Below are positions 3,050-35,957 of a DNA stretch of 37,062 bases, in pieces. Within the stretch, counting starts at the first letter, position 1. Every line of letters starts with the position of its first letter. Both the position numbers and the translations under genes were made by a program. This stretch comes from an uncultured Gammaproteobacteria bacterium (GTDB lineage: Bacteria; Pseudomonadota; Gammaproteobacteria; DRLM01), in NCBI GenBank assembly GCA_947259075.1, contig CAMYKQ010000032.1, forward strand, positions 1 to 37,062. The letters are read 5' to 3'. The notes beneath the pieces are model-generated. The model was not told the DNA's origin, searched no databases, and worked only from the letters and a program-made list of their open reading frames with translations.

Positions 3050-4123
3050 TTATTTACACAGCGCCGCGACCACGGCATCACCCATTTCGGCCGTGCCGAC
3101 TTTTTTCGTACCTTCGGTATAAATATCGCCGGTACGATAGCCCTGCGCCAGCACCTGCTGCACCGCCGCGTCGATGCGACCGGCCAAGGCCTGTTCGTTT
3201 AAGGTATAGCGCAACATCATCGCCACGGAAAGAATCGTGGCCAGCGGATTGGCGCTGCCCTTGCCTGCGATGTCCGGCGCCGAACCGTGGATGGGCTCGT
3301 ACATGCCCTTGTTTTGCTCATCCAACGAGGCCGAAGGCAGCATGCCGATGGAGCCCGTCAACATCGACGCTTCGTCGGAGAGGATGTCGCCGAAGATATT
3401 GCCGGTGACGATCACGTCGAACTGTTTGGGTGCGCGCACCAGCTGCATCGCCGCGTTGTCCACGTACATATGGCTCAGCGCCACCTCGGGATACTCTTTA
3501 CTTACCTCGATCACAACCTCTTTCCACAACTCGCTACACTCCAGCACATTGGCCTTCTCCACCGAGCACAGTTGCTTGCGGCGCTTCATGGCGATGCCGA
3601 AGGCGACATGGGCGACGCGCCGCACTTCCGACTCCGAATACACCATGGTGTTGAAACCGACGCGCTCGCCGCCGCGCGTTTCGATACCGCGCGGCTGGCC
3701 GAAATAAATATCACCGGTGAGTTCGCGCACGATCATGATGTCCAACCCCGCCACCACCTCGGGCTTCAAAGTCGACGCCGCCGCCAACTCGGGATAGAGC
3801 AGCGCGGGACGAAGGTTGGCGAATAAGTTGAGTTCTTTGCGGATGCGCAACAAGCCGCGCTCGGGCCGCTTATCGCGCGGCAGCGTATCGTACTTCGGCC
3901 CGCCCACCGCGCCCAGCAACACCGTGTCGGCCTGCCGCGCCAACCGCAACGTCGCCTCGGGCAGCGGATCGCCCGCCGCGTCATAGCCCGCGCCGCCGAT
4001 GGCCGCCTGCTCGCTCTCGAACTTGAAGCCAAAGCCGCGCAACGCGTGCAACACTTTCAACGCCTCGGCGACGATCTCGGGACCGATGCCGTCGCCGGGC
4101 AATACCGCGATTTTTTTAGTCAT
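3050..4123 (-). CDS. leuB: 3-isopropylmalate dehydrogenase
   Basis: 357 residues, full length. It oxidises and decarboxylates (2R,3S)-3-isopropylmalate to 4-methyl-2-oxopentanoate with NAD+, the third step of leucine synthesis. The N-terminus [18 protein letters not shown] is typical. Substrate-binding REL is in [18 protein letters not shown], and the metal-binding Asp cluster lies in [20 protein letters not shown]. The NAD-selecting C-terminal loop is [16 protein letters not shown]. It sits third in leuC-leuD-leuB, with a palindromic repeat on both sides. Cytoplasmic homodimer by family knowledge. Confidence 0.97.
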
Positions 4124-4152
4124 ACCCTCTCCAATTTAATCTCACTCAAGAT

Positions 4153-4273
4153 GCAGGGCGGGTTAGGCCAGAGGCCGTAACCCACCAACTGTCGCGCAGC
4201 GACTCCTTGCATCGGGTACAAGGTGCGCCTGACGGCGCTAATTGGCGGGTTACGCTACGCTAACCCACCCTAC
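4153..4273. repeat. Palindromic intergenic element, copy B (leuD-leuB junction)
   Basis: A 121-bp member of the GTAGGGTGGG family. The left end is slightly diverged (GCAGGGCGGGTTAGGC) and the right end is GCTAACCCACCCTAC. The interior contains GTCGCGCAGCGACTCC, the reverse complement of a motif in copies C and D. The right end is 14 bp from the leuD stop, the only copy not tight against a stop codon. Confidence 0.85.
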
Positions 4274-4287
4274 ATTTATTCCCACAT

Positions 4288-4929
4288 TTATTCCAAGAAC
4301 AACCACGGCGCCTCAACGCGGCGGCGCGCCTCATAAGCCTTAATGTCCCCGGCATGTTGCAGGCTCAAACCGATGTCATCCAGACCATTGAGCAGCTTGT
4401 ATTTGCGGAATTCGTCGATTTCGAAACCGAATGATTCGCCGCTGGACGTGGTGACGCGTTGCGCCGCCAAATCCACGCTGAGTTGGTAACCAGGCGTGGC
4501 CAGCGTCTCGGCGAATAACTTATCCATCACCGCCGCCGGCAGCACGATGGGCAGAATGCCATTGTTGAAACAATTGTTAAAAAAGATATCGGCGTAGCTG
4601 GGCGCGATGATGACGCGGAAGCCATAATCGAGCAGGGCCCACGGCGCATGCTCGCGCGAGGAACCGCAGCCGAAGTTCTCACGCGCCAGCAAGATCCGCG
4701 CGCCTTGATAACGCGGCTGGTTAAGCACGAATTCGGGATTCACCCGCCGCGTACCGTGATCCATCCCCGGCTCGCCCGGATCGAGATAACGCCAGTCGTC
4801 GAACAGCGTCGGCCCGAAGCCGGTGCGGTGAATGGCCTTCAAATACTGCTTGGGAATAATCTGATCGGTGTCGACGTTGGCGCGGTCCAGCGGCGCCACG
4901 AGGCCGGTTAAAGTCGTTAGTTTTTCCAT
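4288..4929 (-). CDS. leuD: 3-isopropylmalate dehydratase small subunit
   Basis: 213 residues, the usual size for the LeuD swivel-domain subunit. It pairs with LeuC to isomerise 2-isopropylmalate to 3-isopropylmalate. Signature stretches are [50 protein letters not shown] and [13 protein letters not shown]. Two adjacent ATGs exist (4932 and 4929). I chose 4929 because TAGGTG then sits about 6 nt upstream and because relatives begin MEK. It lies downstream of leuC behind repeat copy C. Confidence 0.96.
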
Positions 4930-4967
4930 CATGCACCTACTAAAATTCTTAAACCACGGAGTTCAAT

Positions 4968-5155
4968 GTAGGGTGGGTTAGCGCAGCGTAACCCACCAAG
5001 CCGCGCCGAGAGGCGCTCCTTAAAAAAACAACAAGGAGTCGCTACGCGACGCTAGGGCGGGTTACGGCGCTTTTCCCTCCCCCCATCCCTCTCTCCGCTT
5101 GCGGGAGAAGGGGAGTATGCAAAGAGTGAGTTGATCGGCACCTAACCCACCCTGC
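4968..5155. repeat. Palindromic intergenic element, copy C (leuC-leuD junction), with nested repeat
   Basis: A 188-bp member of the GTAGGGTGGG family. The left end is GTAGGGTGGGTTAGCGC, the right end CCTAACCCACCCTGC. It is longer than the other copies because a second repeat type, the pyrimidine-rich CCCTCTCTCC...GGGAGAAGGGGAG hairpin (about 5085-5116), lies inside it. The interior carries GGAGTCGCTACGCGAC, shared with copies B and D. The right end lies 2 bp from the leuC stop (5158). Confidence 0.87.
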
Positions 5156-5157
5156 AT

Positions 5158-6561
5158 TCACTCCCACTCGCGCACATCGACGAAATGGCCCGCCACCGCG
5201 GCGGCGGCGGCCATCGCGGGACTCACCAAATGCGTGCGCCCGCCCGCGCCTTGGCGGCCTTCGAAATTGCGGTTCGAGGTCGAGGCGCAACGTTCGCCCG
5301 GCTCGAGCCGGTCGGCGTTCATCGCCAGACACATCGAACAGCCCGGCTCACGCCATTCGAAGCCGGCGGCGGTGAAAATCTTGTCCAGCCCTTCCTGCTC
5401 GGCCTGCTGTTTCACCAGACCCGAGCCGGGCACGATCAGCACCTGTTTCACATTGGCTGCTTTCTTGCGGCCTTTGGCCACCACGGCGGCGGCGCGCAAA
5501 TCCTCGATACGCGAATTGGTGCAGGAACCGATGAACACCTTGTCCACCTCGATCGCGGTGATAGGCGTGCCCGCTTGCAGACCCATGTATTTCAGCGCGC
5601 GGGCCATGCCCTCGCGTTTCACGGGATCACTCTCGCGCGCCGGATCGGGCACGCGGGCGTCCACCGCCGTCACCATCTCCGGCGAAGTGCCCCAGCTCAC
5701 TTGCGGCTTGATGCCCGCGGCGGCGATGCGCACGACGCGATCAAACTTCGCATCCGCGTCGCTATGCAATTCGCGCCACGCCATCACCGCTTTTTCCCAC
5801 AAATCGCCCTTGGGTGCGTAGGTGCGGCCGCGCACGTACTCGACCGTCTTCTCATCCGCCGCCACCATGCCGGCGCGCGCGCCCGCCTCAATGGCCATAT
5901 TGCAGACTGTCATCCGGCCTTCCACGGACAGCGCGCGTATCGCCTCACCGCCGAACTCGATGGCGTAGCCATTACCACCGGCGGTGCCGATCTCACCGAT
6001 GATGGCGAGCACGATATCCTTCGCCGTGACGCCGGGGCCGACCGCGCCATCGACGCTCACCAGCATGTTTTTCGATTTTTTCTGCACCAGACATTGGGTG
6101 GCCAACGCGTGCTCCACCTCGGAAGTGCCGATGCCGAAGGCCAGCGCGCCCAGCGCGCCGTGCGTCGAGGTGTGCGAATCGCCGCACACCACGGTCATGC
6201 CCGGCAGGGTGGCACCCGCCTCGGGGCCGATGACGTGGACGATACCCTGGCGGATGTCGCCCATCTTGAATTCGGTGATGCCGAATTCGTCACAATTGTC
6301 ATCCAAGGTGTCCACTTGCAGGCGCGAAACGGGGTCGGTAATGCCCTGCGAACGGTCGGTGGTAGGCACGTTGTGATCCGCCGTGGCCAGATTCGCCGTG
6401 CGGCGCCACACGTCGCGCCTTGCCAAGCGCAGCCCGTCGAAGGCCTGCGGCGAGGTGACTTCATGCACCAGTTGCCGGTCGATGTAAAGCAAACAACTGC
6501 CGTCGTCGTGCTGCCGCACCACGTGGGCATCCCATAATTTGTCGTAAAGCGTTTTGCTCAT
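5158..6561 (-). CDS. leuC: 3-isopropylmalate dehydratase large subunit
   Basis: 467 residues, full length aconitase-family subunit carrying the [4Fe-4S] cluster. It starts [15 protein letters not shown], the family N-terminus. A longer open frame up to 6699 exists but adds a non-conserved segment across the promoter region, so I rejected it. Cluster ligands are in [13 protein letters not shown] and [13 protein letters not shown], and the aconitase motif [20 protein letters not shown] is intact. With LeuD it catalyses the second leucine-specific step. First gene of the leftward leuC-leuD-leuB-asd-usg-fimV series, divergent from a LysR-type regulator whose likely operator lies just upstream. 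Confidence 0.97.
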
Positions 6562-9404: not shown

Positions 9405-9908
9405 ATGACGACTATTCAAGACGTTTTAAATAGCGCGATACCGGCCGCCACAAGCGCCATCCTCAACAACAGCGGCATCGATCTCGCGCGGCAATTAAAG
9501 GATGAAGGACACTACGACGTGGTCGCGGTCATCGGCTTTTCCGGCGAAGGTTTCGCAGGCGCCTTGGGCTTCGCCACGGAACGATCCCTGATCGAGGCCG
9601 CCTATGGCGAATGCGACACACTGCTAGCCGACAGCTGGTTGGGGGAAGTCGCCAATCAATTACTCGGCCGTACCAAGAATGCCTTCCTCGCCTACGGCAT
9701 CGAGATTCGCCTGGCGATCCCCATGGTGCTGCACGGCCTCAAAATTCAAGCGCGGATTGCCGAAACAAACGGCAGTCAATTTCAATTCACCTCGGCATCC
9801 GGGCGAGCCTGCGTTTGGGTCGACGCCAATTGGAACACCCGTCAGAAAGTGCAACCGGCCGATACCGAGCAACATGCCAAAGCCGAAGGCGACATCGTGA
9901 TTTTTTAG
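9405..9908 (+). CDS. CheX-like chemotaxis phosphatase
   Basis: 167 residues. The centre has DSWLGEVANQLLGRTKNAF, matching the CheX/CheC/FliY phosphatase helix with its catalytic E-x-x-N pair (E81 and N84), followed by the conserved IPMVLHG strand. Only one such helix is seen, as in CheX. Members dephosphorylate CheY-P, so the natural substrate here is the receiver encoded at 12010. It is the first of four closely spaced plus-strand genes (phosphatase, kinase, receiver, MCP-like). Its start has only a weak Shine-Dalgarno (GGAAAAC). Cytoplasmic. Family call by motif; the actual substrate is inferred from context. Confidence 0.78.
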   Translation: MTTIQDVLNSAIPAATSAILNNSGIDLARQLKDEGHYDVVAVIGFSGEGFAGALGFATERSLIEAAYGECDTLLADSWLGEVANQLLGRTKNAFLAYGIEIRLAIPMVLHGLKIQARIAETNGSQFQFTSASGRACVWVDANWNTRQKVQPADTEQHAKAEGDIVIF

Positions 9909-9970
9909 CTTTGGTCTTGCGGAACCGGCGAACGGAAAACACCCAATCGCCTAGATACCTGGAGTGAGTC

Positions 9971-11947
9971 ATGGTCAACTTGAAAAGATATCTCGTACTG
10001 CCCAGTGAGGTCACCGCCTTCGAGCACAATTACCTCACCCGGCTGAACAAAATCGCGTTGTATTTCTTCTACGCGCACATCCCCATTTTCATGCTCGTCG
10101 CCTGGGCCGCCGATACCGGTCCGCTCTTCGCGCTGATACTCAGCATCGCGGTACTGATCGGGCCCACCATCGCCCAATTCACCTTCCAGAGCGAACGCGC
10201 CAAATCGATGGTCTATGGCTTTACCGCCATGGCCATGGGTGCCCTGCTGGTACATTTCGGCCAAGGCCCGGTGCAGATCGAAATGCACTTCTACTTCTTC
10301 GCCTTGCTGGCCATGCTGTGCATGTTCGCCAACCCCGCGGTCAACCTCGTCGCCGCGGTCACCGTGGCCGTGCATCACCTGCTCTTTTGGTGGCTGCTCC
10401 CCAGCAGCGTGTTCAACTACGACGCCTCGATCTGGGTCGTGGCGGTACACGCGGCCTTCGTGGTGCTCGAAACGGTGGCGGCCTGCTTCATCTCGCGCCG
10501 CTTCTTCGACGACGTCATCGGTCTGGAAAAAATCGTGCGGGCGCGCACCAGGGAAGTCCACCTGATACTCAACAACATCGGTCAAGGTTTCATGACCGTG
10601 GACTTGCACGGCACCATGTCGGATGAGCGTTCCACCATCGTCAGCAGCTGGTTCGGCGAAAGCGGCGATGCCACCACCTTCCAGGAATATGTAAGCAAAG
10701 TCGACGCGGGCGTCGGCGAATGGTTCGAACTGGGCTTGGAATCACTGCGTGATGGCTTCCTGCCAACGGAAGTCTCGATCGATCAACTGCCCAAGCGCAT
10801 CAATCTCAACGGTAGCATTCTCGAACTAAGCTACAAACCCATCAACGATGCCTCCGGCGCGCTCGAAAAGCTGCTGATCATCATCTCCGACATCACCAGC
10901 GAAATCGAACGCGAGCAGGCCGAAGTCCAGCAGAAACAATTGATGCATATCTTCGAGAATATCATGCGCGACAAACTCGGCTTCCTGCAGTTCCTCGCCG
11001 AAGCCGACGACATGATCGAAGCCGTCGCCGGCCAGAAATATGCCGACCTGCCGCACTTGAAACGCATCATTCACACCATCAAGGGCAATGCCGGTCTGTT
11101 CGGCATGGCCAGCATCGCCTCGCTGTGTCACGAGCTGGAAGATGAGATCGTGCTGGAGAGCCGCGCGCCCGAACAAGAGCGCCTGACCACCCTGAAAAAC
11201 GAATGGAAGACGACCTGCGCCAAACTCGATCATCTGCTCGGTGAACGCTCCGGCGAGAATATCGAGATCAACGACGCCGACTACAAGGACGTGGTGCGCG
11301 CCCTGCTCAACCGCGATGACCCGGACAAGATCGCCGAGATGATCCAGTCCTGGAAACTGGAGACCGCGCAACGCCGTCTCGAATTCATCAAACAACAAGC
11401 CGAGAGTCTGGCCACCCGCATGGGCAAACAACATATCGAGGTCAAGGTCGAATCGAACAACCTGCGCCTGGAAAGCGCGAAGTGGGCCTCGTTCTGGTCC
11501 AGCTTCACTCATATTCTGCGCAACTCCATCGACCACGGCATCGAATCACAGGAAGAGCGCGAACAGATGGGCAAGAGCGGACCGGGTTCCATCCACATCG
11601 AAACCTATGTGGACAAGGATGAGTTCGTGATCGCGGTGGAAGACGACGGCCGCGGCGTCGATTGGCAGTCGATCGCCGACAAGGCCATCGAGGCCAAACT
11701 GCCGCATGCGACCGAGGCGGACCTGGTCAACGCCCTGTTCAAGGATGGCATCAGCACGAAGAAGGTCGTCACCCTCTTCTCCGGCCGTGGCGTGGGTATG
11801 GGCGCGGTGCACGAGGAGTGCGCGAAGCGCGGCGGTCAGATCGAACTGAAGAGCCAAGCGGGCAAGGGCACGGCATTCATGTTCCGCTTCCCGCTCGACA
11901 AATCAATCTATCAGCCGGCGCCGCGCCTCGAGGCGTCCGCGGCTTGA
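9971..11947 (+). CDS. Membrane histidine kinase with Hpt and CheA-like ATPase domains
   Basis: 658 residues. Residues about 25-178 hold roughly six membrane helices with the motifs VQIEMHFYFF and AVHHLLFWWLLP, a sensor type I recall on some MCPs and GGDEF proteins. Residues 195-310 look PAS-like (LNNIGQGFMTVDLHG to IISDITSE). An Hpt domain follows, with the likely phosphorylated His368 in RIIHTIKGNAGLFGM, then a helical segment (455-485) and a CheA-P4-type ATPase: N box HILRNSIDHGIE (514-525), G1 DDGRGVD (558-564), G2 GRGVGMGAV (605-613). There is no C-terminal CheW-like domain and no obvious P2. GGAG lies 6 nt before the ATG. Predicted to phosphorylate the CheY-like protein encoded next. Domain calls for Hpt and ATPase are firm, the PAS call is moderate. 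Confidence 0.88.
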   Translation: MVNLKRYLVLPSEVTAFEHNYLTRLNKIALYFFYAHIPIFMLVAWAADTGPLFALILSIAVLIGPTIAQFTFQSERAKSMVYGFTAMAMGALLVHFGQGPVQIEMHFYFFALLAMLCMFANPAVNLVAAVTVAVHHLLFWWLLPSSVFNYDASIWVVAVHAAFVVLETVAACFISRRFFDDVIGLEKIVRARTREVHLILNNIGQGFMTVDLHGTMSDERSTIVSSWFGESGDATTFQEYVSKVDAGVGEWFELGLESLRDGFLPTEVSIDQLPKRINLNGSILELSYKPINDASGALEKLLIIISDITSEIEREQAEVQQKQLMHIFENIMRDKLGFLQFLAEADDMIEAVAGQKYADLPHLKRIIHTIKGNAGLFGMASIASLCHELEDEIVLESRAPEQERLTTLKNEWKTTCAKLDHLLGERSGENIEINDADYKDVVRALLNRDDPDKIAEMIQSWKLETAQRRLEFIKQQAESLATRMGKQHIEVKVESNNLRLESAKWASFWSSFTHILRNSIDHGIESQEEREQMGKSGPGSIHIETYVDKDEFVIAVEDDGRGVDWQSIADKAIEAKLPHATEADLVNALFKDGISTKKVVTLFSGRGVGMGAVHEECAKRGGQIELKSQAGKGTAFMFRFPLDKSIYQPAPRLEASAA

Positions 11948-12009
11948 GCGCGACAGGGCAGTAATCCAATCAATCCTGCAATCAGAATAGCGGCACTAAG
12001 GAGCTGAAA

Positions 12010-12378
12010 ATGGGAAAATTGATTTTGATCGTTGATGATTCGGCGGCCGTCAGACAGCAAGTCGGTATGGCCTTGGGGCAGGCGGGTTTCGAAACCGTGG
12101 AGGCCGGCGACGGCCGCGAGGGTGCCTCGGCGGTGGCCAAGAATCCGAACATCGCCATGGTGATCAGCGACGTCAACATGCCCAATATGAACGGCTTGGA
12201 GATGGTCAGCGAGATCAAGAAGAACCCCTCCAATCGCGCATTGCCCATTTTGATGTTGACCACCGAAGGCCAGCCCGCGCTGATCAAACAGGCGAAGGAA
12301 GCCGGCGCCGTCGGCTGGATCGTCAAACCCTTCAACGCCAGCCAGCTGGTCGCCACCGTGAAGAAACTGACGGCCTAA
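12010..12378 (+). CDS. CheY-like single-domain response regulator
   Basis: 122 residues forming a lone receiver domain with no output domain. The acidic pair is D9/D10 (LIVDDSAAV), the phospho-acceptor D54 (VISDVNMPNMNG), the switch Thr T84 (LMLTTEGQ) and the conserved Lys-Pro K106-P107 (WIVKPFNA). A good Shine-Dalgarno, AAGGAG, lies 6 nt before the ATG. It lies 62 bp after the kinase and 5 bp before the MCP-like gene. Likely takes phosphate from the kinase Hpt domain and is dephosphorylated by the CheX-like protein. The downstream target (flagellar, pilus or other) is not shown; the window does hold type IV pilus genes 16 kb away. Confidence 0.93.
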   Translation: MGKLILIVDDSAAVRQQVGMALGQAGFETVEAGDGREGASAVAKNPNIAMVISDVNMPNMNGLEMVSEIKKNPSNRALPILMLTTEGQPALIKQAKEAGAVGWIVKPFNASQLVATVKKLTA

Positions 12379-12383
12379 TACTA

Positions 12384-13364
12384 ATGTGGCGTTTCTGGGA
12401 TAAGCGTAAACATCAAGATGAAGGCGAGGAGGCAAATAAACTCGCGCCCTCGTTTGATGTGATCATGGACGCACCCGCCAAGGAGTGCCCCAAATGCGCG
12501 CGGCTCCCCAAGCATGTGGATGGCACAATTGGCGAATACCGCGCGCGGATTCGAGAACGGGTGCAGTCCGCCAAGGACACCAGTGAAACTGAAATTTTAG
12601 CCGTCGGCGATTGCGTCAAAGACATCGTCAATCACACCCGCCAATATATTGAAGAATCCAAGGAATTACTGGAGAAAAATCTCACCGCGCAAGCCACGTC
12701 TTTGGACAATTACCTCGGTTATGCCAAACAAACCGTGGGCGCGCAAAACAGCACGGTGCAGCAAGCACTCACTTTGTCGGAGGACATCAGCAAGGCAGGC
12801 ACGGCGGTAGATAAGTTGGCGAACCAAGCAAGATTGCTGGCGCTCAACGCCAAAATCGAATCCGCGCGCCTAGGCAGCGCGGGCAAGGCTTTCAGTGTAA
12901 TCACCGAGGAGATGAATCACTTGAGCGGCGAAATCGCCAAGACCAATCACTTAATAGCGGATTCCATCAAGGCGATCAAGGAATGCCTGCCCACCATCAT
13001 GAATCAAACCCGTTCTCAAATTGAGAAACTGGAAGCGTTCAGCTCGACCATGCGCCAGCTTAAGGACGGCGTGGAGAAATCCATCTCCACCACCAACAGC
13101 ACGGGCAACACGCGCCTGGACACCATACTCGAGCTCGCCTACTCCGCCCTGTCGCACTTGCAGTATCAAGACCCCATGGTGCAAGACCTGCAAAAAATAG
13201 ACGTGCTGATGAAGAAACTCAATGACGAGGTGAACGGGGAACTCGGCATACCCTTGACCGCCCAGGACACGCCCGTTCACATCAAGACGCTAGGCGGCAC
13301 CCTGAAAAACTCCAAGGACGACTCCGACCCCCTGCCCGACGCCGGTGAAGTTCTGCTCTTTTAA
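12384..13364 (+). CDS. Soluble MCP-like signalling protein
   Basis: 326 residues, no signal peptide or membrane helix. The middle (about 105-240) is a long helical region whose tip, KLANQARLLALNAKIESARL then GSAGKAFSVITEEM, matches the highly conserved hairpin tip of methyl-accepting chemotaxis proteins. In classical receptors that tip binds CheA and CheW. The N-terminal 50 residues are charged and contain a CxxC pair (C35, C38 in ECPKC). The C-terminal part has HLQYQDPMVQDLQKID. There is no HAMP or ligand-binding domain and no obvious methylation helices of normal length. It starts 5 bp after the receiver stop without a clear ribosome site, so translational coupling is likely. It may be a cytoplasmic partner of the upstream kinase. 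Confidence 0.8.
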   Translation: MWRFWDKRKHQDEGEEANKLAPSFDVIMDAPAKECPKCARLPKHVDGTIGEYRARIRERVQSAKDTSETEILAVGDCVKDIVNHTRQYIEESKELLEKNLTAQATSLDNYLGYAKQTVGAQNSTVQQALTLSEDISKAGTAVDKLANQARLLALNAKIESARLGSAGKAFSVITEEMNHLSGEIAKTNHLIADSIKAIKECLPTIMNQTRSQIEKLEAFSSTMRQLKDGVEKSISTTNSTGNTRLDTILELAYSALSHLQYQDPMVQDLQKIDVLMKKLNDEVNGELGIPLTAQDTPVHIKTLGGTLKNSKDDSDPLPDAGEVLLF

Positions 13365-29854: not shown

Positions 29855-32800
29855 TTAGCGCATATGCTGCCAGGTGATACGGCCCAGCGCCGCCGCGCCG
29901 GTATCCACCCGCGGTGTGGTCGGGTCACCGTTGCCTTGACTGGCCGCGAGGTTTGTACAGGTCCTGCCGGTGCAAGCACTGCTCACGGCGGCGATCGGCG
30001 ACAACATGCTGTCGTATTGCATACCGCTGGCGCCGACGACGGTGCCTGATGAGGTACCGGTAGTCGTGGTGCCAGCGCTGGTGGTGGTCGTGCTCGAACA
30101 GGACGGCGTCGAGGACGTACCACCGGTGGTCGTGGTGACACAGGTCGTAACGGTCCTGCTCGAACTGCCGTCGCTGTACGCCGTGTCACAGGTCTCGACC
30201 GTGGTCGTAGTCGTGGTCGTTGTACCACCGCCGCCACCGCCGCCACCGCCGCGGCCACCGCGGCCACCGCGGCCACGACGACCGCCACCGCCCGAAGTCG
30301 AACTCGTGCTTGAGCTGGTGGTGGCACAACTGGTGGTGCCGGTAACCGGCCCGCCGCCGCTGCTCGCCGTCACCTTATCGTTATCGTCGATGATGCCGTC
30401 GCCGTTGAAGTCAAAGGGTGAGTCGGGCAGGCGCGCGCCGTCCGCGGCATTGAGCAGCATCAGCCAGCTGCCGCCGCCCACGCCGCAGACCTCGGGATTG
30501 GGCAAGAGCGTGGCGAAGATGATGCGGCCATCACGTAAGATCGCCTCGGTGTTTTGCCGTTCGCCGTTATTAATGCCAGTCTGCTGGTTCACCAAGTCCA
30601 TATACCAGCCGCGATGCGCGCTCCAATCAATGGTGTTGTTAGTGGTCACCCGGGCATTACCGCCGCCGGAGACAGGTATCTCTTGAGTGATTTCTTGCCG
30701 CAATAAGGTGCTGCGCAATACGGTGCTCGCGCCCGTGCCGCTGAGATTCCTGTCCCAGATGCCGTAGAAGGACTGGGTTACCTGGCCGGTCACGGCGTTA
30801 TCCCCTACTTCGATGTATTTACCGGTGCCGAAATAGACCATATAGCTATTGGCGACGGTGGGATGCGGACCGACCATGGGCCGCACGGTGATAGCCTGCG
30901 CCTGCGGCGAGGCCCCCGTGGAACGCGCGGTGAATAGAGGCTGGCCACCATTACTCACCACCCACGAAGCGGAGCTGGTGTTGTTCAAGTCAAAACGCCA
31001 GAGATTGCCGAACAAGTCACCCGCGTAGACGTAATCCACCAGGGTGTCACCGTCGACATCCACGGGCGCCGGGGTCGCCAGGCCATTGGGACGGCTGGTG
31101 CCGGTGGGGTCAACGCTGCTGCCCGCGCCCGTGCTGATCTTTTTGATAAGCGTACCGTCAGCCATATTGACCACGTACAGCACCGCCGCGCCGGTGGTGC
31201 TGACCCGGCCGTCGGCCTCGGTGCTGTTATAGCCATTGCCGAAGACCGCGGCCCAGGTGCCATCACGCAGGCGCACGATGACGGGCTGGCTGTAGCTATA
31301 CCCCATATCCACGTCCTGCGTGTCACTGAATTCCCATTTCACGATTTGCGAGGCCGTAGCTTCCGAGAAGGTGGACGGATCGGTGACGTCCAGGGCGAAG
31401 ATGCCCTGCCCGCCGCCACGCAGGCTGCCGACCAGCATGGTGCGCCAGCTGCCGCCGACATAGACGTCGCCCACGGTGGGTGAACCGTCCACGTAATAGC
31501 GATGGGTATACGAAGCGTCGGTCAAACGGCCTATCTTGCTGTAGATCATGCTGGGTACGTAGGCCAGTTTTTCTTGGCCGGTGACCGCATCGAAGCCGTG
31601 CAGCATGCCGTCATTGGCGCCCACATACACCATGGGCGCGCGTGCCGCCTTCGCGGTGCGGAAGGCCGAATAACTATCGAAGTTATAGTAGAAGCCCGGC
31701 GCGCCGACGTAGGCGGGGCCGGAGCTGATGATGTCGCCCAAGACCCCGACGCGGTCACGGAAGCTGCCGCCGCTGCTCACCTCGCCGGTGCGTACACCGC
31801 GCAGGTAATCCAGACGCAGCGAACCCTTGCCATCACCGCTGCCGCTGCTATTGGCATTGAGGAAGGTCTGCTGCGCCGCGGCCAGGGACGCCCAGCGGAA
31901 GGGCACGCCTACACCCGTATCGGACTTACGCGTCACGATCACCCGGCTCGCGGGACTGGTGGTATTGAGAACATCCGCCGCATCCAGGGTGGCCGCGCCG
32001 ACCACGCCGGTGGGTGAAATAGGCATATAACGCAATTGACCGGCCCAGGACACGCTTTCAAAGCGTGCTTGATACACCGTAGCACCCGCGCTGATATTCG
32101 AGGTGCTCAAGGCCAGGGCCGCCGCCGCGCTGGTGTGCGCGGTGATATCGGCCAAGGCATTTTGCAAGGCGGTCACCAAGGCATCAGGGTCATTGGCGGA
32201 TAGATACAAACCACGGCCGTTGAAGGCGGCATGACGCAGGTCATCGATCTTCTGCGCATCGCCCGAGCTGGGATTGGGCCAGGTGAAGGGCGTGGTCTGA
32301 TCCGCCGGCTCGCTGGTCAAGGTGCCGCGTATGCCGAAGCTCACGGTATAGGTCGACATATGCTGGTGACGCGCCTCATCAAAACCGGGCACGATCGCCA
32401 CATTATTGGCGAGCCCGGTCTGAATGTCGGTCTCGTAATATTTCATGGCGATGTCCGCCAAGGTATTGCTGTAACCGTCGGCGAAGGCGCCGCCGTCAAA
32501 GGCGGTGTTGTTATCGCCGTCGGTATTGCCCACCGTGGGCGCGGTGCCGTTGTAGAAACCGTCGGTCATGAGAATGGCGTAGTTTTGCTGACATTCTCCG
32601 CCCAGGGCGGCGCTCAAGGCCGGGCAACTGGAAAACAGCGCATTCGTCTTACAACTAAGGTATTTGCCGCACTCGTCGAGGGCGGTTTGCAACGGCGTGC
32701 CGTTCTGAGAATCGATGCTATACAAGGCATCGAGCAATACGCGCTTATTGCCGGTCTTGGGATCATCGTTCATCAAGGCAATGGCGCGCTTCACGTTATT

Positions 32801-33682
32801 GTTGTTATGGAGAGTGGACAGGCCCATGCGTACGTTCTTGGACTCGGCGATCACCTTGCCGTAGGCGGCCTTGGCCACCAGCTCGCGGCTGCGGTAATAG
32901 CTGAACCAGTTGGCGAAGTTTTGTTTGGTGGCGGCATCGGCGTTCTTAATCAGGAACTGGGTTTCCTCGCCGTTATCGAAACGGCCGTTGCTATTGGCAT
33001 CATTCCAGGTGTAATAACGGAAGCCGTCGGGCTGACTATCGGCGTCGCGGTCGGCGGTGGCATAACTGGAGGTATTTCTTCTCGAGCTATCACGGGTCAG
33101 GTCGATGGTCACCGAGGTGGAAAGATAGGGATCCAAACGCGCGGCGGTGATGGGCATATTGCCGAAGGCCACGCCGGCGTTATCGACGCCCTGCCACGGC
33201 TCATAGGTGCGATTGGGGTTGAAGTAGAGGGTGTTGAATTGATAATTGCGGAAGCGCCATTCTTGCTCGTCCGCGGTATTGCACTGATTCGTGCCGCCCG
33301 AATAGCTGTTATAGGGCGAGGTCACGGCATAGGTGTAGCCGTAAAAGGTGCCGCTGGAGAACGTACAATCCGCCGTGCCGTTGTTGTCGTTGTCGCGGTG
33401 TTTGACGCTGCCGCTGCCTGAGGGGCTGCTGCCGTCGGGCTGGGTGCCGGTGAAGCGCCCGTCCTGAGTATAATCCTGGGTGATGACCTCCCAATCCATG
33501 CTACCCGAATCGTCGATGACGATCATGATATTGGGCGGCGCATTGGTGCCCATATACAAAGGCGTGGTGGCGAGATTGAGATTCACCGCCTGGCTGTCGA
33601 TGGACCAGCCCGTGATAACCACGGCGCACGCGGCGATGAGGCTAGCGGGTGTCAGAGACGAACGAATAAATGAAAGGGCCAT
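29855..33682 (-). CDS. pilY1: PilY1 pilus-tip adhesin/assembly factor
   Basis: 1275 residues. A signal sequence is followed by a von Willebrand A-like region that begins APPNIMIVIDDSGSMDW, with MIDAS-type D-x-S-x-S at about residues 57-61. Several Asp-rich loops (DNDNNGTAD, DANSNGRFDNGEE) may bind Ca2+. The C-terminal half is the PilY1 beta-propeller (about 640-1060) with VYVGANDGMLHGFD and the EF-hand-like Ca site DVDGDTLVDYVYAGD. A second such loop, DFNGDGIIDDNDK, follows. The last ~140 residues are an odd Gly/Arg/Thr/Ser-rich tail. GAGGAG 7 nt before ATG 33682 fixes this start against a TTG at 33697. It controls pilus extension and surface attachment, at the pilus tip or cell surface. Confidence 0.93.
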   Translation of the reverse strand: MALSFIRSSLTPASLIAACAVVITGWSIDSQAVNLNLATTPLYMGTNAPPNIMIVIDDSGSMDWEVITQDYTQDGRFTGTQPDGSSPSGSGSVKHRDNDNNGTADCTFSSGTFYGYTYAVTSPYNSYSGGTNQCNTADEQEWRFRNYQFNTLYFNPNRTYEPWQGVDNAGVAFGNMPITAARLDPYLSTSVTIDLTRDSSRRNTSSYATADRDADSQPDGFRYYTWNDANSNGRFDNGEETQFLIKNADAATKQNFANWFSYYRSRELVAKAAYGKVIAESKNVRMGLSTLHNNNNVKRAIALMNDDPKTGNKRVLLDALYSIDSQNGTPLQTALDECGKYLSCKTNALFSSCPALSAALGGECQQNYAILMTDGFYNGTAPTVGNTDGDNNTAFDGGAFADGYSNTLADIAMKYYETDIQTGLANNVAIVPGFDEARHQHMSTYTVSFGIRGTLTSEPADQTTPFTWPNPSSGDAQKIDDLRHAAFNGRGLYLSANDPDALVTALQNALADITAHTSAAAALALSTSNISAGATVYQARFESVSWAGQLRYMPISPTGVVGAATLDAADVLNTTSPASRVIVTRKSDTGVGVPFRWASLAAAQQTFLNANSSGSGDGKGSLRLDYLRGVRTGEVSSGGSFRDRVGVLGDIISSGPAYVGAPGFYYNFDSYSAFRTAKAARAPMVYVGANDGMLHGFDAVTGQEKLAYVPSMIYSKIGRLTDASYTHRYYVDGSPTVGDVYVGGSWRTMLVGSLRGGGQGIFALDVTDPSTFSEATASQIVKWEFSDTQDVDMGYSYSQPVIVRLRDGTWAAVFGNGYNSTEADGRVSTTGAAVLYVVNMADGTLIKKISTGAGSSVDPTGTSRPNGLATPAPVDVDGDTLVDYVYAGDLFGNLWRFDLNNTSSASWVVSNGGQPLFTARSTGASPQAQAITVRPMVGPHPTVANSYMVYFGTGKYIEVGDNAVTGQVTQSFYGIWDRNLSGTGASTVLRSTLLRQEITQEIPVSGGGNARVTTNNTIDWSAHRGWYMDLVNQQTGINNGERQNTEAILRDGRIIFATLLPNPEVCGVGGGSWLMLLNAADGARLPDSPFDFNGDGIIDDNDKVTASSGGGPVTGTTSCATTSSSTSSTSGGGGRRGRGGRGGRGGGGGGGGGTTTTTTTTVETCDTAYSDGSSSRTVTTCVTTTTGGTSSTPSCSSTTTTSAGTTTTGTSSGTVVGASGMQYDSMLSPIAAVSSACTGRTCTNLAASQGNGDPTTPRVDTGAAALGRITWQHMR
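30224..30292. repeat. In-frame GCC/ACC-type triplet tract inside pilY1
   Basis: About 69 bp of near-tandem CCACCGCCG and CCACCGCGG units on the plus strand, encoding the Gly9 run and the RGGRGGRGG stretch of PilY1. A Thr8 run and GTCGTGGTC units flank it. It is in frame, so length changes by units of three would keep the protein open. Confidence 0.8.
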
Positions 33683-33693
33683 GCTACATCTCC

Positions 33694-34260
33694 TCAATTA
33701 AACCGCTGCGCGTAGATACTTTGCAGGGTCACACGGGTTGCTGAATTCTGGCCCGCGCCTTGGGCACTGATCTGGTAATACTCGACACTGGGCTGGGGTT
33801 GATAACCGGTCGCGGTAAGCAGGTTATCGCGGTTCAAGGCACCCGGCACCGCCACCTCCTGCGTCACGATCACGGGCTGGGAATCCACGCCCGGCAACGG
33901 CGTCAAGCCGCGAAGCGTGCCGTAGCGTACTCCATTCGCCGTCCACCACGTCGCGGGCTGGCCGCCCACCGCGGTGCCGTCAAAAGTGCCGCTGGCGCGC
34001 ACCATGCCCCCGCCCATGATCGTGCTCAAGGGTTTGGCGGACTGCGCCCGCAACCAGGTTTCTATATCCTTCAGCCCGCTCTCCGCCGCCTCCATCCCGA
34101 GTGCGGTGTCGCGCTGATTGTGAACCACCTTCTCTTCCATCACGGACTTACTCATGGTGGTGATGCCTAACAGGGTCAGCACGATGAGAAACAGCAAGCT
34201 GACAATCAGCGACGCGCCGCGCTGTGAAAGGGGGGGTGGATATAAAACGGTGTATTTCAT
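33694..34260 (-). CDS. pilX: Type IV pilus minor pilin PilX
   Basis: 188 residues. A 15-residue leader ending SQRG precedes ASLIVSLLFLIVLTLLGITT, the hydrophobic N-terminus characteristic of PilX, which lacks Glu at position 5 as PilX proteins do. Then MEEKVVHNQRDTALGMEAAE and SGLKDIETWLRAQ follow. Its ATG overlaps the pilW stop by 4 bases (ATGA), showing coupling. A pseudopilin-like priming subunit thought to act with PilY1. Confidence 0.9.
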   Translation of the reverse strand: MKYTVLYPPPLSQRGASLIVSLLFLIVLTLLGITTMSKSVMEEKVVHNQRDTALGMEAAESGLKDIETWLRAQSAKPLSTIMGGGMVRASGTFDGTAVGGQPATWWTANGVRYGTLRGLTPLPGVDSQPVIVTQEVAVPGALNRDNLLTATGYQPQPSVEYYQISAQGAGQNSATRVTLQSIYAQRFN

Positions 34261-34982
34261 TGTGCCAACCTATTGCGTAGTTTGACGGTGGTGGAATAAA
34301 CCCGGCGCAGGCGTTTGTCATTGAAGGGGCCGTACACCTGGCCCAGCAAATCGTAGCTGCGTCCGGCGGTATCGGGGGAGACCAGCGTATCGCTGGCCAG
34401 CAACACCGCCACCCTCATGCTCACCACGTTGAGCATGGTGGCCGGCGGCACGGCCACGTAGCGATTCGCGGCCCCGTCAGCATCGGTGTCCTCGCCGTAA
34501 AGCACCTGCACACCCTCCACGCCATCGAGCAGCTCGATGCCGTTGCAGGTGAGTATCGGCCGCCCGGTGGTGCCACTGGTGACGACGGCGAAGACATTCA
34601 CCACCGGGTTGCCCGCCGCCGCGCCGGTGCAATCGACGGGGACGGGTAATTGATAACGCACCGTGAAGCTGTCGCTGTTATTCACGCCGGTGTTATTGGC
34701 GCCTTGCAGAGGATTAGCGACGGGCTGCAAAGGATTGGTGCGATAGCCCGCCATCAAAATCTCGCCGCTCATCACCCCCACCGCGAAGCGGCCCTGCTCT
34801 TGGATCATGGACATCGCCTCGGCGAAACGGGAGGTCTGGCGGTTGGAAAGAAAGATCTGTATCACCAGCCCGGTCATCAACAAACCCAAGACCATGCCTA
34901 TCATCAGCTCGATCATGGTCAATCCGCGCTGATGCCGAGCCATGGCGCTGAATCTCGTTGCCGAGGATGTTACGGTGACCAT
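34257..34982 (-). CDS. pilW: Type IV pilus minor pilin PilW
   Basis: 241 residues from the ATG that overlaps the pilV end by 13 bases. An internal ATG at 34943 would give a 7-residue leader (MARHQRG), closer to usual pilins, and may be the real start; neither has a strong ribosome site. The mature N-terminus is LTMIELMIGMVLGLLMTGLV with Glu5. Later NRQTSRFAEAMSMIQEQGRF and the VLYGEDTDADGAANRYV segment match PilW. Minor pilin in the priming complex. Confidence 0.9.
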   Translation of the reverse strand: MVTVTSSATRFSAMARHQRGLTMIELMIGMVLGLLMTGLVIQIFLSNRQTSRFAEAMSMIQEQGRFAVGVMSGEILMAGYRTNPLQPVANPLQGANNTGVNNSDSFTVRYQLPVPVDCTGAAAGNPVVNVFAVVTSGTTGRPILTCNGIELLDGVEGVQVLYGEDTDADGAANRYVAVPPATMLNVVSMRVAVLLASDTLVSPDTAGRSYDLLGQVYGPFNDKRLRRVYSTTVKLRNRLAQ

Positions 34983-35440
34983 GTCGTCACCACTTGGTCC
35001 GCGCTGCCATCACGACGGGTCCAGCTCAAGGCAATTGCATATCGGCCATCAGGGTCAGGGCCGGCCACGCTACTGACGGCATTAGGCAGAAAAATATTAT
35101 TGCTAGTGACCCATATAAAGGCGTCATATTGCGCGACTTGCGCGGAGGTGCACCCGGTGAGAATGCAACCGGGGTCGGTGCCCGCGGCATTGGCGATGAC
35201 ATAATTGCCGGCCGCCACGCCCGGCGCATTGGCCCGCATGCGCTCGGCGATGTCATTGACTTGTTGAATAGCGAGACTGCGCTGGTAGGCGTCGCTTTGA
35301 TTGCGCACGCCGCTGATCTGCATCTGCGCCACGCCCATCAGCCCCAGGGCCATCACCAGCATGGTGATAAGCGCCTCGATGAGAGAGGAGCCGCGGCAGC
35401 GCGACGGTGTGGTAAGCGAGTGGTGTTTACGTCTCTTCAT
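34970..35440 (-). CDS. pilV: Type IV pilus minor pilin PilV
   Basis: 156 residues. The leader ends SRCRG, followed by SSLIEALITMLVMALGLMGV with Glu5, then AIQQVNDIAERMRAN, typical of PilV. It has a Cys pair (GCILTGC) that may form a disulfide. GAGG lies 6 nt before the ATG. Seven bases downstream of the fimT stop and overlapping pilW, so part of one transcript. Confidence 0.92.
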   Translation of the reverse strand: MKRRKHHSLTTPSRCRGSSLIEALITMLVMALGLMGVAQMQISGVRNQSDAYQRSLAIQQVNDIAERMRANAPGVAAGNYVIANAAGTDPGCILTGCTSAQVAQYDAFIWVTSNNIFLPNAVSSVAGPDPDGRYAIALSWTRRDGSADQVVTTWSP

Positions 35441-35447
35441 GGCCGCC

Positions 35448-35957
35448 TCAGGTGCAAGTCATCGCGGTGGTGCTGGCGTAACCGAACACTTTAATCACTA
35501 AACTACGGCCCGCTTCGGCGCTGCGGTTATCGCAAATAGTGAACCTGCGTTGAGCGGCCGCCGGAATATTCAAAAATCCGCTGGGCAGATAACTGATGGT
35601 GGTCACACCCTCCACGCTCACCAATTCCTGGGCTGTGGCCAAGGCGCCGAAGACACGCTGGATTTCATTGGCGGAAAGGGTGCTGTCGCCGTTCAAATCC
35701 ACCCACACCAGCCAGCCTTGTTTCCAAGACGTGCCGTTGCAGGCGGTGCCGCCATTGCTGGCGCACACCGTGGCCCTCGCGCCACGCCGCATCGCCTCGC
35801 TGCGCGCCAGTTGAAAACCTTTGAGCAATTCTTCGCTGCTGCTCGTCAAGCGATTATTCATAATCATATTGTTGAACGAAGGCACCGCCATGGTCATGAG
35901 AATGACCGCGACCGCGATGGTGATCATGAGTTCGACTAAACTGAATCCACGCTGCAT
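35448..35957 (-). CDS. fimT: GspH/FimT-family minor pilin
   Basis: 169 residues. The short leader MQRG precedes FSLVELMITIAVAVILMTMA with Glu5, then FNNMIMNNRLTSSSEELLKG and FQLARSEAMRRGARATVCAS, the FimT/FimU/GspH signature. C-terminal cysteines are in FTICDNRS and AMTCT. FimT and FimU cannot be told apart by eye. First gene of the leftward minor pilin operon. Members of this family can bind DNA in competent bacteria; whether this one does is unknown. Confidence 0.88.
   Translation of the reverse strand: MQRGFSLVELMITIAVAVILMTMAVPSFNNMIMNNRLTSSSEELLKGFQLARSEAMRRGARATVCASNGGTACNGTSWKQGWLVWVDLNGDSTLSANEIQRVFGALATAQELVSVEGVTTISYLPSGFLNIPAAAQRRFTICDNRSAEAGRSLVIKVFGYASTTAMTCT

Follow-up and report, generated by a model that had tools for sequence, protein, structure and literature searches.

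A four-gene locus encoding a candidate chemosensory-type phosphorelay with a separate receptor-tip protein in an uncultured gammaproteobacterium

In chemosensory arrays the receptor, CheW and the P5 domain of CheA are thought to act jointly, and the locus described here raises the question of how a receptor tip might serve a kinase that is encoded with neither of those partners. The window, meaning the whole stretch of DNA analysed (37,062 nucleotides), makes up all of contig C32 (CAMYKQ010000032.1) of the 3.1-Mb, 99.9%-complete assembly GCA_947259075.1 from an uncultured gammaproteobacterium. Its forward strand carries four neighboring genes, which encode a CheX-family protein, a membrane kinase, a CheY-like receiver and a soluble protein with the hairpin of methyl-accepting chemotaxis proteins (MCPs). 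We favor, with moderate confidence, the reading that they form a chemosensory-type phosphorelay that is self-contained and has a split receptor, in which CheX and the hairpin protein would be held by a common C-terminal tail. The features concerned are as follows.

9405..9908, + strand: CheX-family protein, putative phosphatase of phosphorylated CheY (CheY-P), 167 aa (Pfam CheX, open reading frame)
9645..9656, + strand: catalytic E81-x-x-N84 motif of CheX
9888..9905, + strand: tail GDIVIF of CheX, putative docking peptide
9971..11947, + strand: membrane histidine kinase, 658 aa, with a six-transmembrane (6-TM) sensor, a PAS-like region, Hpt and a CheA-type P4, and no P5
10028..10540, + strand: 6-TM sensor of the kinase, about residues 20-190 (hydropathy, BLAST to loci L019 and L022, phmmer)
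10538..10975, + strand: PAS-like region, residues 190-335, related to module kinases
10988..11203, + strand: Hpt domain with phospho-acceptor H368, codon 11072-11074 (Pfam Hpt)
11507..11899, + strand: HATPase_c of the CheA P4 type, with N, G1 and G2 boxes at H514-N518, D558-G562 and G605-M610
12010..12378, + strand: CheY-like single-domain response regulator (Pfam Response_reg, NCBIfam)
12384..13364, + strand: soluble MCP-hairpin protein, 326 aa (Pfam MCPsignal)
12804..12953, + strand: receptor tip of the hairpin protein, residues 141-190, LALNAKIESARLGSAGKAF
13164..13184, + strand: YQDPMVQ in the hairpin protein, present in the window's protein only and not in its relatives
13344..13361, + strand: tail GEVLLF of the hairpin protein, same pattern as the CheX tail

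The open reading frames (ORFs) and Pfam matches bear out the set of four same-strand genes, with gaps of 62, 62 and 5 bp, that a first-pass annotation of the sequence had described. The residues named there were all found in place, namely E81-x-x-N84 in CheX, H368 (within HTIKG) in the kinase and D54 in the receiver. The domains and catalytic residues of the module proteins are all intact, which supports a phosphorelay.

We then assessed how widely this combination recurs by scanning 84,980 species genomes with a kinase alignment and adding plasmid records, the resulting counts being lower bounds. At least 48 loci encode a membrane Hpt-ATPase kinase with a short MCP-hairpin protein and one or two CheX proteins adjacent, and by automatic count a CheY-like protein accompanies them in all but one. 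Most of these loci are from Burkholderiales, with others from Rhodocyclaceae, Methylobacter and Oleiphilus. With the kinase written as HK, the receiver as RR and the CheX proteins as CX1 and CX2, the gene orders among the loci listed were HK-MCP-CX1-CX2-RR (26), HK-MCP-CX1-RR (12), HK-CX2-RR-MCP-CX1 (3), HK-RR-MCP-CX1 (2) and some single cases, among them a divergently transcribed arrangement in Oleiphilus. The annotation had mentioned scattered similar sets and had proposed a search for the same families in the same order; such sets do exist and the families do cluster, but as a recurrent module of which the window is an odd member, its own order differing from the usual HK-MCP-CheX-(CheX)-CheY.

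A less biased check was made on an even sample of 369 genomes of the class. Strong CheX relatives occurred in four further genomes, with an adjacent hairpin gene and the tail in 4/4; two of these genomes hold complete sets, one has no adjacent kinase, and one has a kinase fragment only, with no receiver found. Twelve weaker CheX matches in this sample all lack the tail, and only one of them, L184, adjoins a kinase and a receiver. That locus (3297-6295, from another gammaproteobacterium) combines HK, CheY and CheX genes in a trio that lacks both hairpin protein and tail, and it may represent a simpler version of the module. It was also noted that at L171 (4219-6520) the kinase is reduced to a sensor/HAMP part directly 5' of the hairpin and CheX genes, perhaps as a fragment or through an assembly break, and that on an Ideonella plasmid (L024, 9215-11197) the module is closely followed downstream by a diversity-generating retroelement with reverse transcriptase and Avd.

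The window kinase possesses two hallmarks of a CheA kinase, an Hpt (P1) domain with its phospho-accepting histidine (Pfam, residues 340-411, 6e-12) and a CheA-type P4 ATPase (HATPase_c, residues 513-643), and its Hpt is nearest to CheA-type Hpts. Pfam gave no match to HisKA or to CheW/P5, and the protein stops about 15 residues past the ATPase match. The CheA dimerisation domain (P3) likewise has no Pfam match, and the AlphaFold model, with a predicted local distance difference test (pLDDT) score of 60, is too poor to judge dimerisation. Six hydrophobic segments were found by hydropathy in the N-terminal part. This sensor is 34-39% identical by BLAST to the sensors of full-length chemoreceptors in two same-family genomes (L019 and L022), and phmmer with residues 1-190 returned MCPs as its only matches (E 4e-13), these being 6-TM chemoreceptors of two same-family genomes. 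Module kinases made up 37/44 matches to the PAS-like region (best E 1.7e-5). A receptor-type sensor recurs in the relatives' kinases, as in Caballeronia, where the architecture is 4HB_MCP-HAMP-PAS-Hpt-HATPase. The sensor and the relatives therefore agree with the earlier proposal that sensing has moved onto the kinase and that the receptor tip has become a separate protein.

The window CheX was assigned to its family, with its CheX fold and E-x-x-N motif, by sequence profile and motif alone; it scored 29.4 bits against Pfam CheX (cut-off 27) and matched the solved CheC-like protein 3h2d weakly in sequence (E 0.0037). Residues E81, N84, G88 and P106 are invariant across it and the CheX proteins of the related clusters, and ExxN is retained in 48/48 CX1 and 32/32 CX2 proteins, from which we infer a putative CheY-P phosphatase. 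The receiver matched Pfam Response_reg at 93.5 bits (1.2e-26) with CheY as the top NCBIfam model, and its phospho-acceptor D54 is encoded at 12169-12171.

The hairpin protein has the signalling tip that is the hallmark of MCPs, as indicated by a Pfam MCPsignal match of 51.8 bits and by the top Foldseek matches of its model, the soluble Thermotoga maritima receptor 3g67 and Tsr 1qu7. AlphaFold predicts a helical rod over residues of about 41-230 (pLDDT about 86-94). Neither a transmembrane segment (hydropathy) nor a sensor domain of its own (Pfam) was found; among relatives, 42/44 hairpin proteins have a single N-terminal transmembrane segment, whereas the window's has no membrane anchor. The tip core LNAxIExxR is retained, and neither the window's protein nor the relatives with a readable tip keep the Q-T-N that usually directly precedes it. 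YQDPMVQ resembles the D-x-x-x-Q catalytic motif of CheZ; the protein has no Pfam CheZ match. A possibly metal-binding ECPKCARLPKH (CxxC plus His) was noted close to its N-terminus (window 12480-12512) and was not found in relatives.

Two of the four proteins also resemble each other at their C-termini. A tail of the form G-[EAD]-L-[ED]-[LMF]-F-COOH ends all 80 CheX proteins of the related clusters (48/48 CX1 and 32/32 CX2). The window CheX shares this G-E-L-E-L-F-type tail as GDIVIF, departing from it at three positions, two of them hydrophobic and the other the second acidic one. When the pattern G-[DE]-hydrophobic-x-hydrophobic-F-stop was recast as DNA and searched across the whole 3.1-Mb genome, exactly two matches were obtained, the window's CheX and hairpin protein; the reversed-pattern control also gave two, and matches elsewhere that end in TGG, a non-stop codon which the pattern lets through as well, were set aside. 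Among the non-CheX ORFs of the examined loci the tail occurred in 0/1767. For a single protein the composition-based chance of the tail is about 1.5e-5, and for two out of four given genes it is about 1e-9; since the pattern was defined once the relatives were known, these figures serve as a guide only, but the exclusivity of the tail is still striking. AlphaFold predicts the last 40 residues of the hairpin protein (287-326), where its tail lies, to be disordered.

The shared tail may be a docking tail. In CheZ, the C-terminus docks on CheY, and as the nearest precedent this makes the CheY-like protein our first guess for the partner and the kinase our second. The CheZ peptide and the tail of the window's CheX are both acidic-hydrophobic, end in F-COOH and sit on a known or putative CheY-P phosphatase; the phosphatase fold of CheX is, however, unrelated to that of CheZ, and common ancestry is not claimed. 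Across six module genomes, the tail at the end of ORFs of at least 60 aa was found on CX1, CX2, two stand-alone CheX proteins, a CheW-like protein, a CheD and one doubtful ORF, where the names CheW-like and CheD come from sequence and gene context rather than a profile search, and where three Oleiphilus matches, one of them a TGG, were left out of the assignment. The CheW-like protein and the two stand-alone CheX proteins are from Oleiphilus and the CheD is from Methylobacter (L125, 1042-1521; L129, 1501-2139; L148; L149). This distribution hints at a general recruitment tag for chemosensory proteins.

Taken from sequence, we infer the following course of signalling. The receptor-type 6-TM sensor, fused directly to the Hpt/CheA-P4 kinase, would let a stimulus alter autophosphorylation at H368, and the phosphoryl group would pass to D54 of the CheY-like protein, from which CheX would strip it by means of E81 and N84. 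The MCP-hairpin protein would be a cytoplasmic helical scaffold or regulator rather than a ligand sensor, and both it and CheX would be recruited through the tail G-[DE]-hydrophobic-x-hydrophobic-F-COOH, most likely onto the CheY-like protein or the kinase. CheY-P would then act by a protein-protein effect on a non-flagellar target, for example type IV pili or the Wsp/cyclic di-GMP (c-di-GMP) pathway.

We sought to place this module within the signalling repertoire of the genome. CheW, CheA, CheB and CheR had been described as missing, which is correct for the window but not for the genome, where a Wsp-type set on contig C17 and 11 other MCP genes, of which one seems to be split, were found. 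The C17 cluster (L188, 3083-12826 within C17:17500-33500) reads MCP-CheW-CheR-CheW-CheA(REC)-CheB-REC-GGDEF by Pfam and is the only CheA/CheW system found; its identification as Chp/Pil was rejected, given this Wsp-type content with REC-GGDEF. Of complete che operons that might use the module proteins as ordinary accessories, the CheW search brought to light this cluster alone, on another contig and with a Wsp layout, so that the module stands outside any che operon found. Two further CheX genes occur elsewhere, a lower bound since the family search missed the window's own CheX. One of them, 182 aa long, precedes a gene for a 127-aa CheY-like protein on C51 (L187, 5151-6093 within C51:54000-66000) with neither kinase nor tail, possibly as an orphan phosphatase-receiver pair.

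FliM is absent from the 99.9%-complete genome, and the only CheA/CheW system is Wsp-like and thus linked to c-di-GMP, so a flagellar motor output was rejected. The absence of FliM makes twitching or a surface response somewhat more likely, and we offer this output as a guess. The window itself holds type IV pilus genes, with a minor-pilin operon on the minus strand (29855-35957; GspH/FimT-like, PilV-like, PilW, PilX, PilY1) and, at 3-563, a FimV-type N-terminus. Upstream of the four-gene set, at a distance of 58 bp, is a DUF6436 gene; a simple scan, which says little, gave no sigma-70-like promoter for the set.

An alternative is that the four proteins work for another system. The hairpin protein could insert into the WspA/WspE/CheW array and tune c-di-GMP signalling, the kinase supplying additional input and CheX and the CheY-like protein acting as a phosphate sink. 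The retained tip core and the lack of any other CheA/CheW/CheR/CheB set than the wsp-type cluster ending in REC-GGDEF speak for such an accessory role, which we nevertheless regard as unlikely: the Q-T-N before the core is lost, the module sits on a different contig with its own complete kinase, and it stays together as a whole in relatives. An ordinary two-component system, in which only the kinase and the CheY-like protein matter and the other two are passengers, would account for full-length kinase relatives without such neighbors (L029, L055, L058 and L068) and for the L184 trio that has no hairpin protein. The families occur together, variously ordered, at no fewer than 48 loci, and this co-occurrence and the tail common to CheX and the hairpin protein make such a system quite improbable.

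Several observations weigh against the split-receptor phosphorelay. In a tree of kinase P4 domains the window grouped with other kinases (ordinary CheA P4s) rather than with the module clade, with support of 0.98 and a long branch. The FERWHE and FQDIQAGGK motifs of the relatives' hairpin proteins are missing from the window's, while the relatives' hairpin proteins have no tail. Searches of five same-family genomes, which are all the order-level genomes sampled, gave no orthologue and showed no such kinase, and under strict thresholds samples of the class gave no orthologue either. The docking partner, whether the CheY-like protein or the kinase, is itself a guess by analogy. Because of the P4 grouping and the absent hairpin motifs, the window set may have been put together independently from similar families rather than have descended from the Burkholderiales type, an origin compatible with the phosphorelay and one that we hold to be a serious possibility, if somewhat the less probable one. 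The CheA-type Hpt, the different sensor and gene order and the divergent hairpin protein fit it, whereas the PAS-like region, the common CheX tail motif and an HK-RR-MCP order like that of L076 and L091 point to shared descent. The choice lies between an ancient, divergent branch and an assembly that was in part independent.

Returning to the phosphorelay, in the openly licensed literature we found no described system of this composition, in agreement with the first-pass annotation, and no paper on the four-gene module or its tail (GELELF, GEIDLF and similar strings). If the reading is true, a recurrent module with a receptor tip and without CheW or P5 would reveal other roles of the tip, and the tail becomes a short testable handle, which would single out those CheX, CheD, CheW-like and MCP-like proteins that have a common partner. 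We tentatively suggest, leaning slightly the other way, a distinct class of chemosensory machine that requires neither CheW nor P5, in which the kinase senses directly, the detached tip organises the complex and the F-COOH tail serves generally to recruit CheX, CheD, CheW-like proteins and MCP tips. The stronger claim of CheW-free signalling is possible, and the evidence does not yet carry it.

Compared with the Burkholderiales-type clusters, the window shares adjacent genes for the four families, a receptor-type sensor on an Hpt-P4 kinase, the PAS-like region and the CheX tail; it differs in gene order, in having one CheX rather than usually two, in its 6-TM rather than 4HB-HAMP sensor, and in a hairpin protein that is soluble and itself tailed. 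The Wsp-type system on C17 is likewise a non-flagellar chemosensory pathway, but it occupies a separate locus with a full MCP-CheW-CheR-CheA-CheB set and a GGDEF output. The Flm pathway of Comamonas testosteroni is of the type IV pilus (Tfp)/Chp type, with CheA-like FlmA, CheW-like FlmC and a PilJ-type receptor (PMC6391922). It resembles the module as a chemosensory pathway with a non-taxis output (biofilm), but it has another gene set, and with its CheA and CheW it was rejected as a described form of the module. In an earlier survey, every one of several thousand CheA sequences had four core domains (PMC10542144). We take these to be P1, P3, P4 and P5, and the window kinase differs in having no P5. 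With the canonical CheA-CheW-MCP arrays (Escherichia coli; CheX as in Thermotoga) the module has in common an Hpt/P4 relay to a CheY-like protein, a CheX-type phosphatase and an MCP tip, whereas it has no CheW, P5 or CheR/CheB, carries its sensor on the kinase and encodes the tip as a separate protein.

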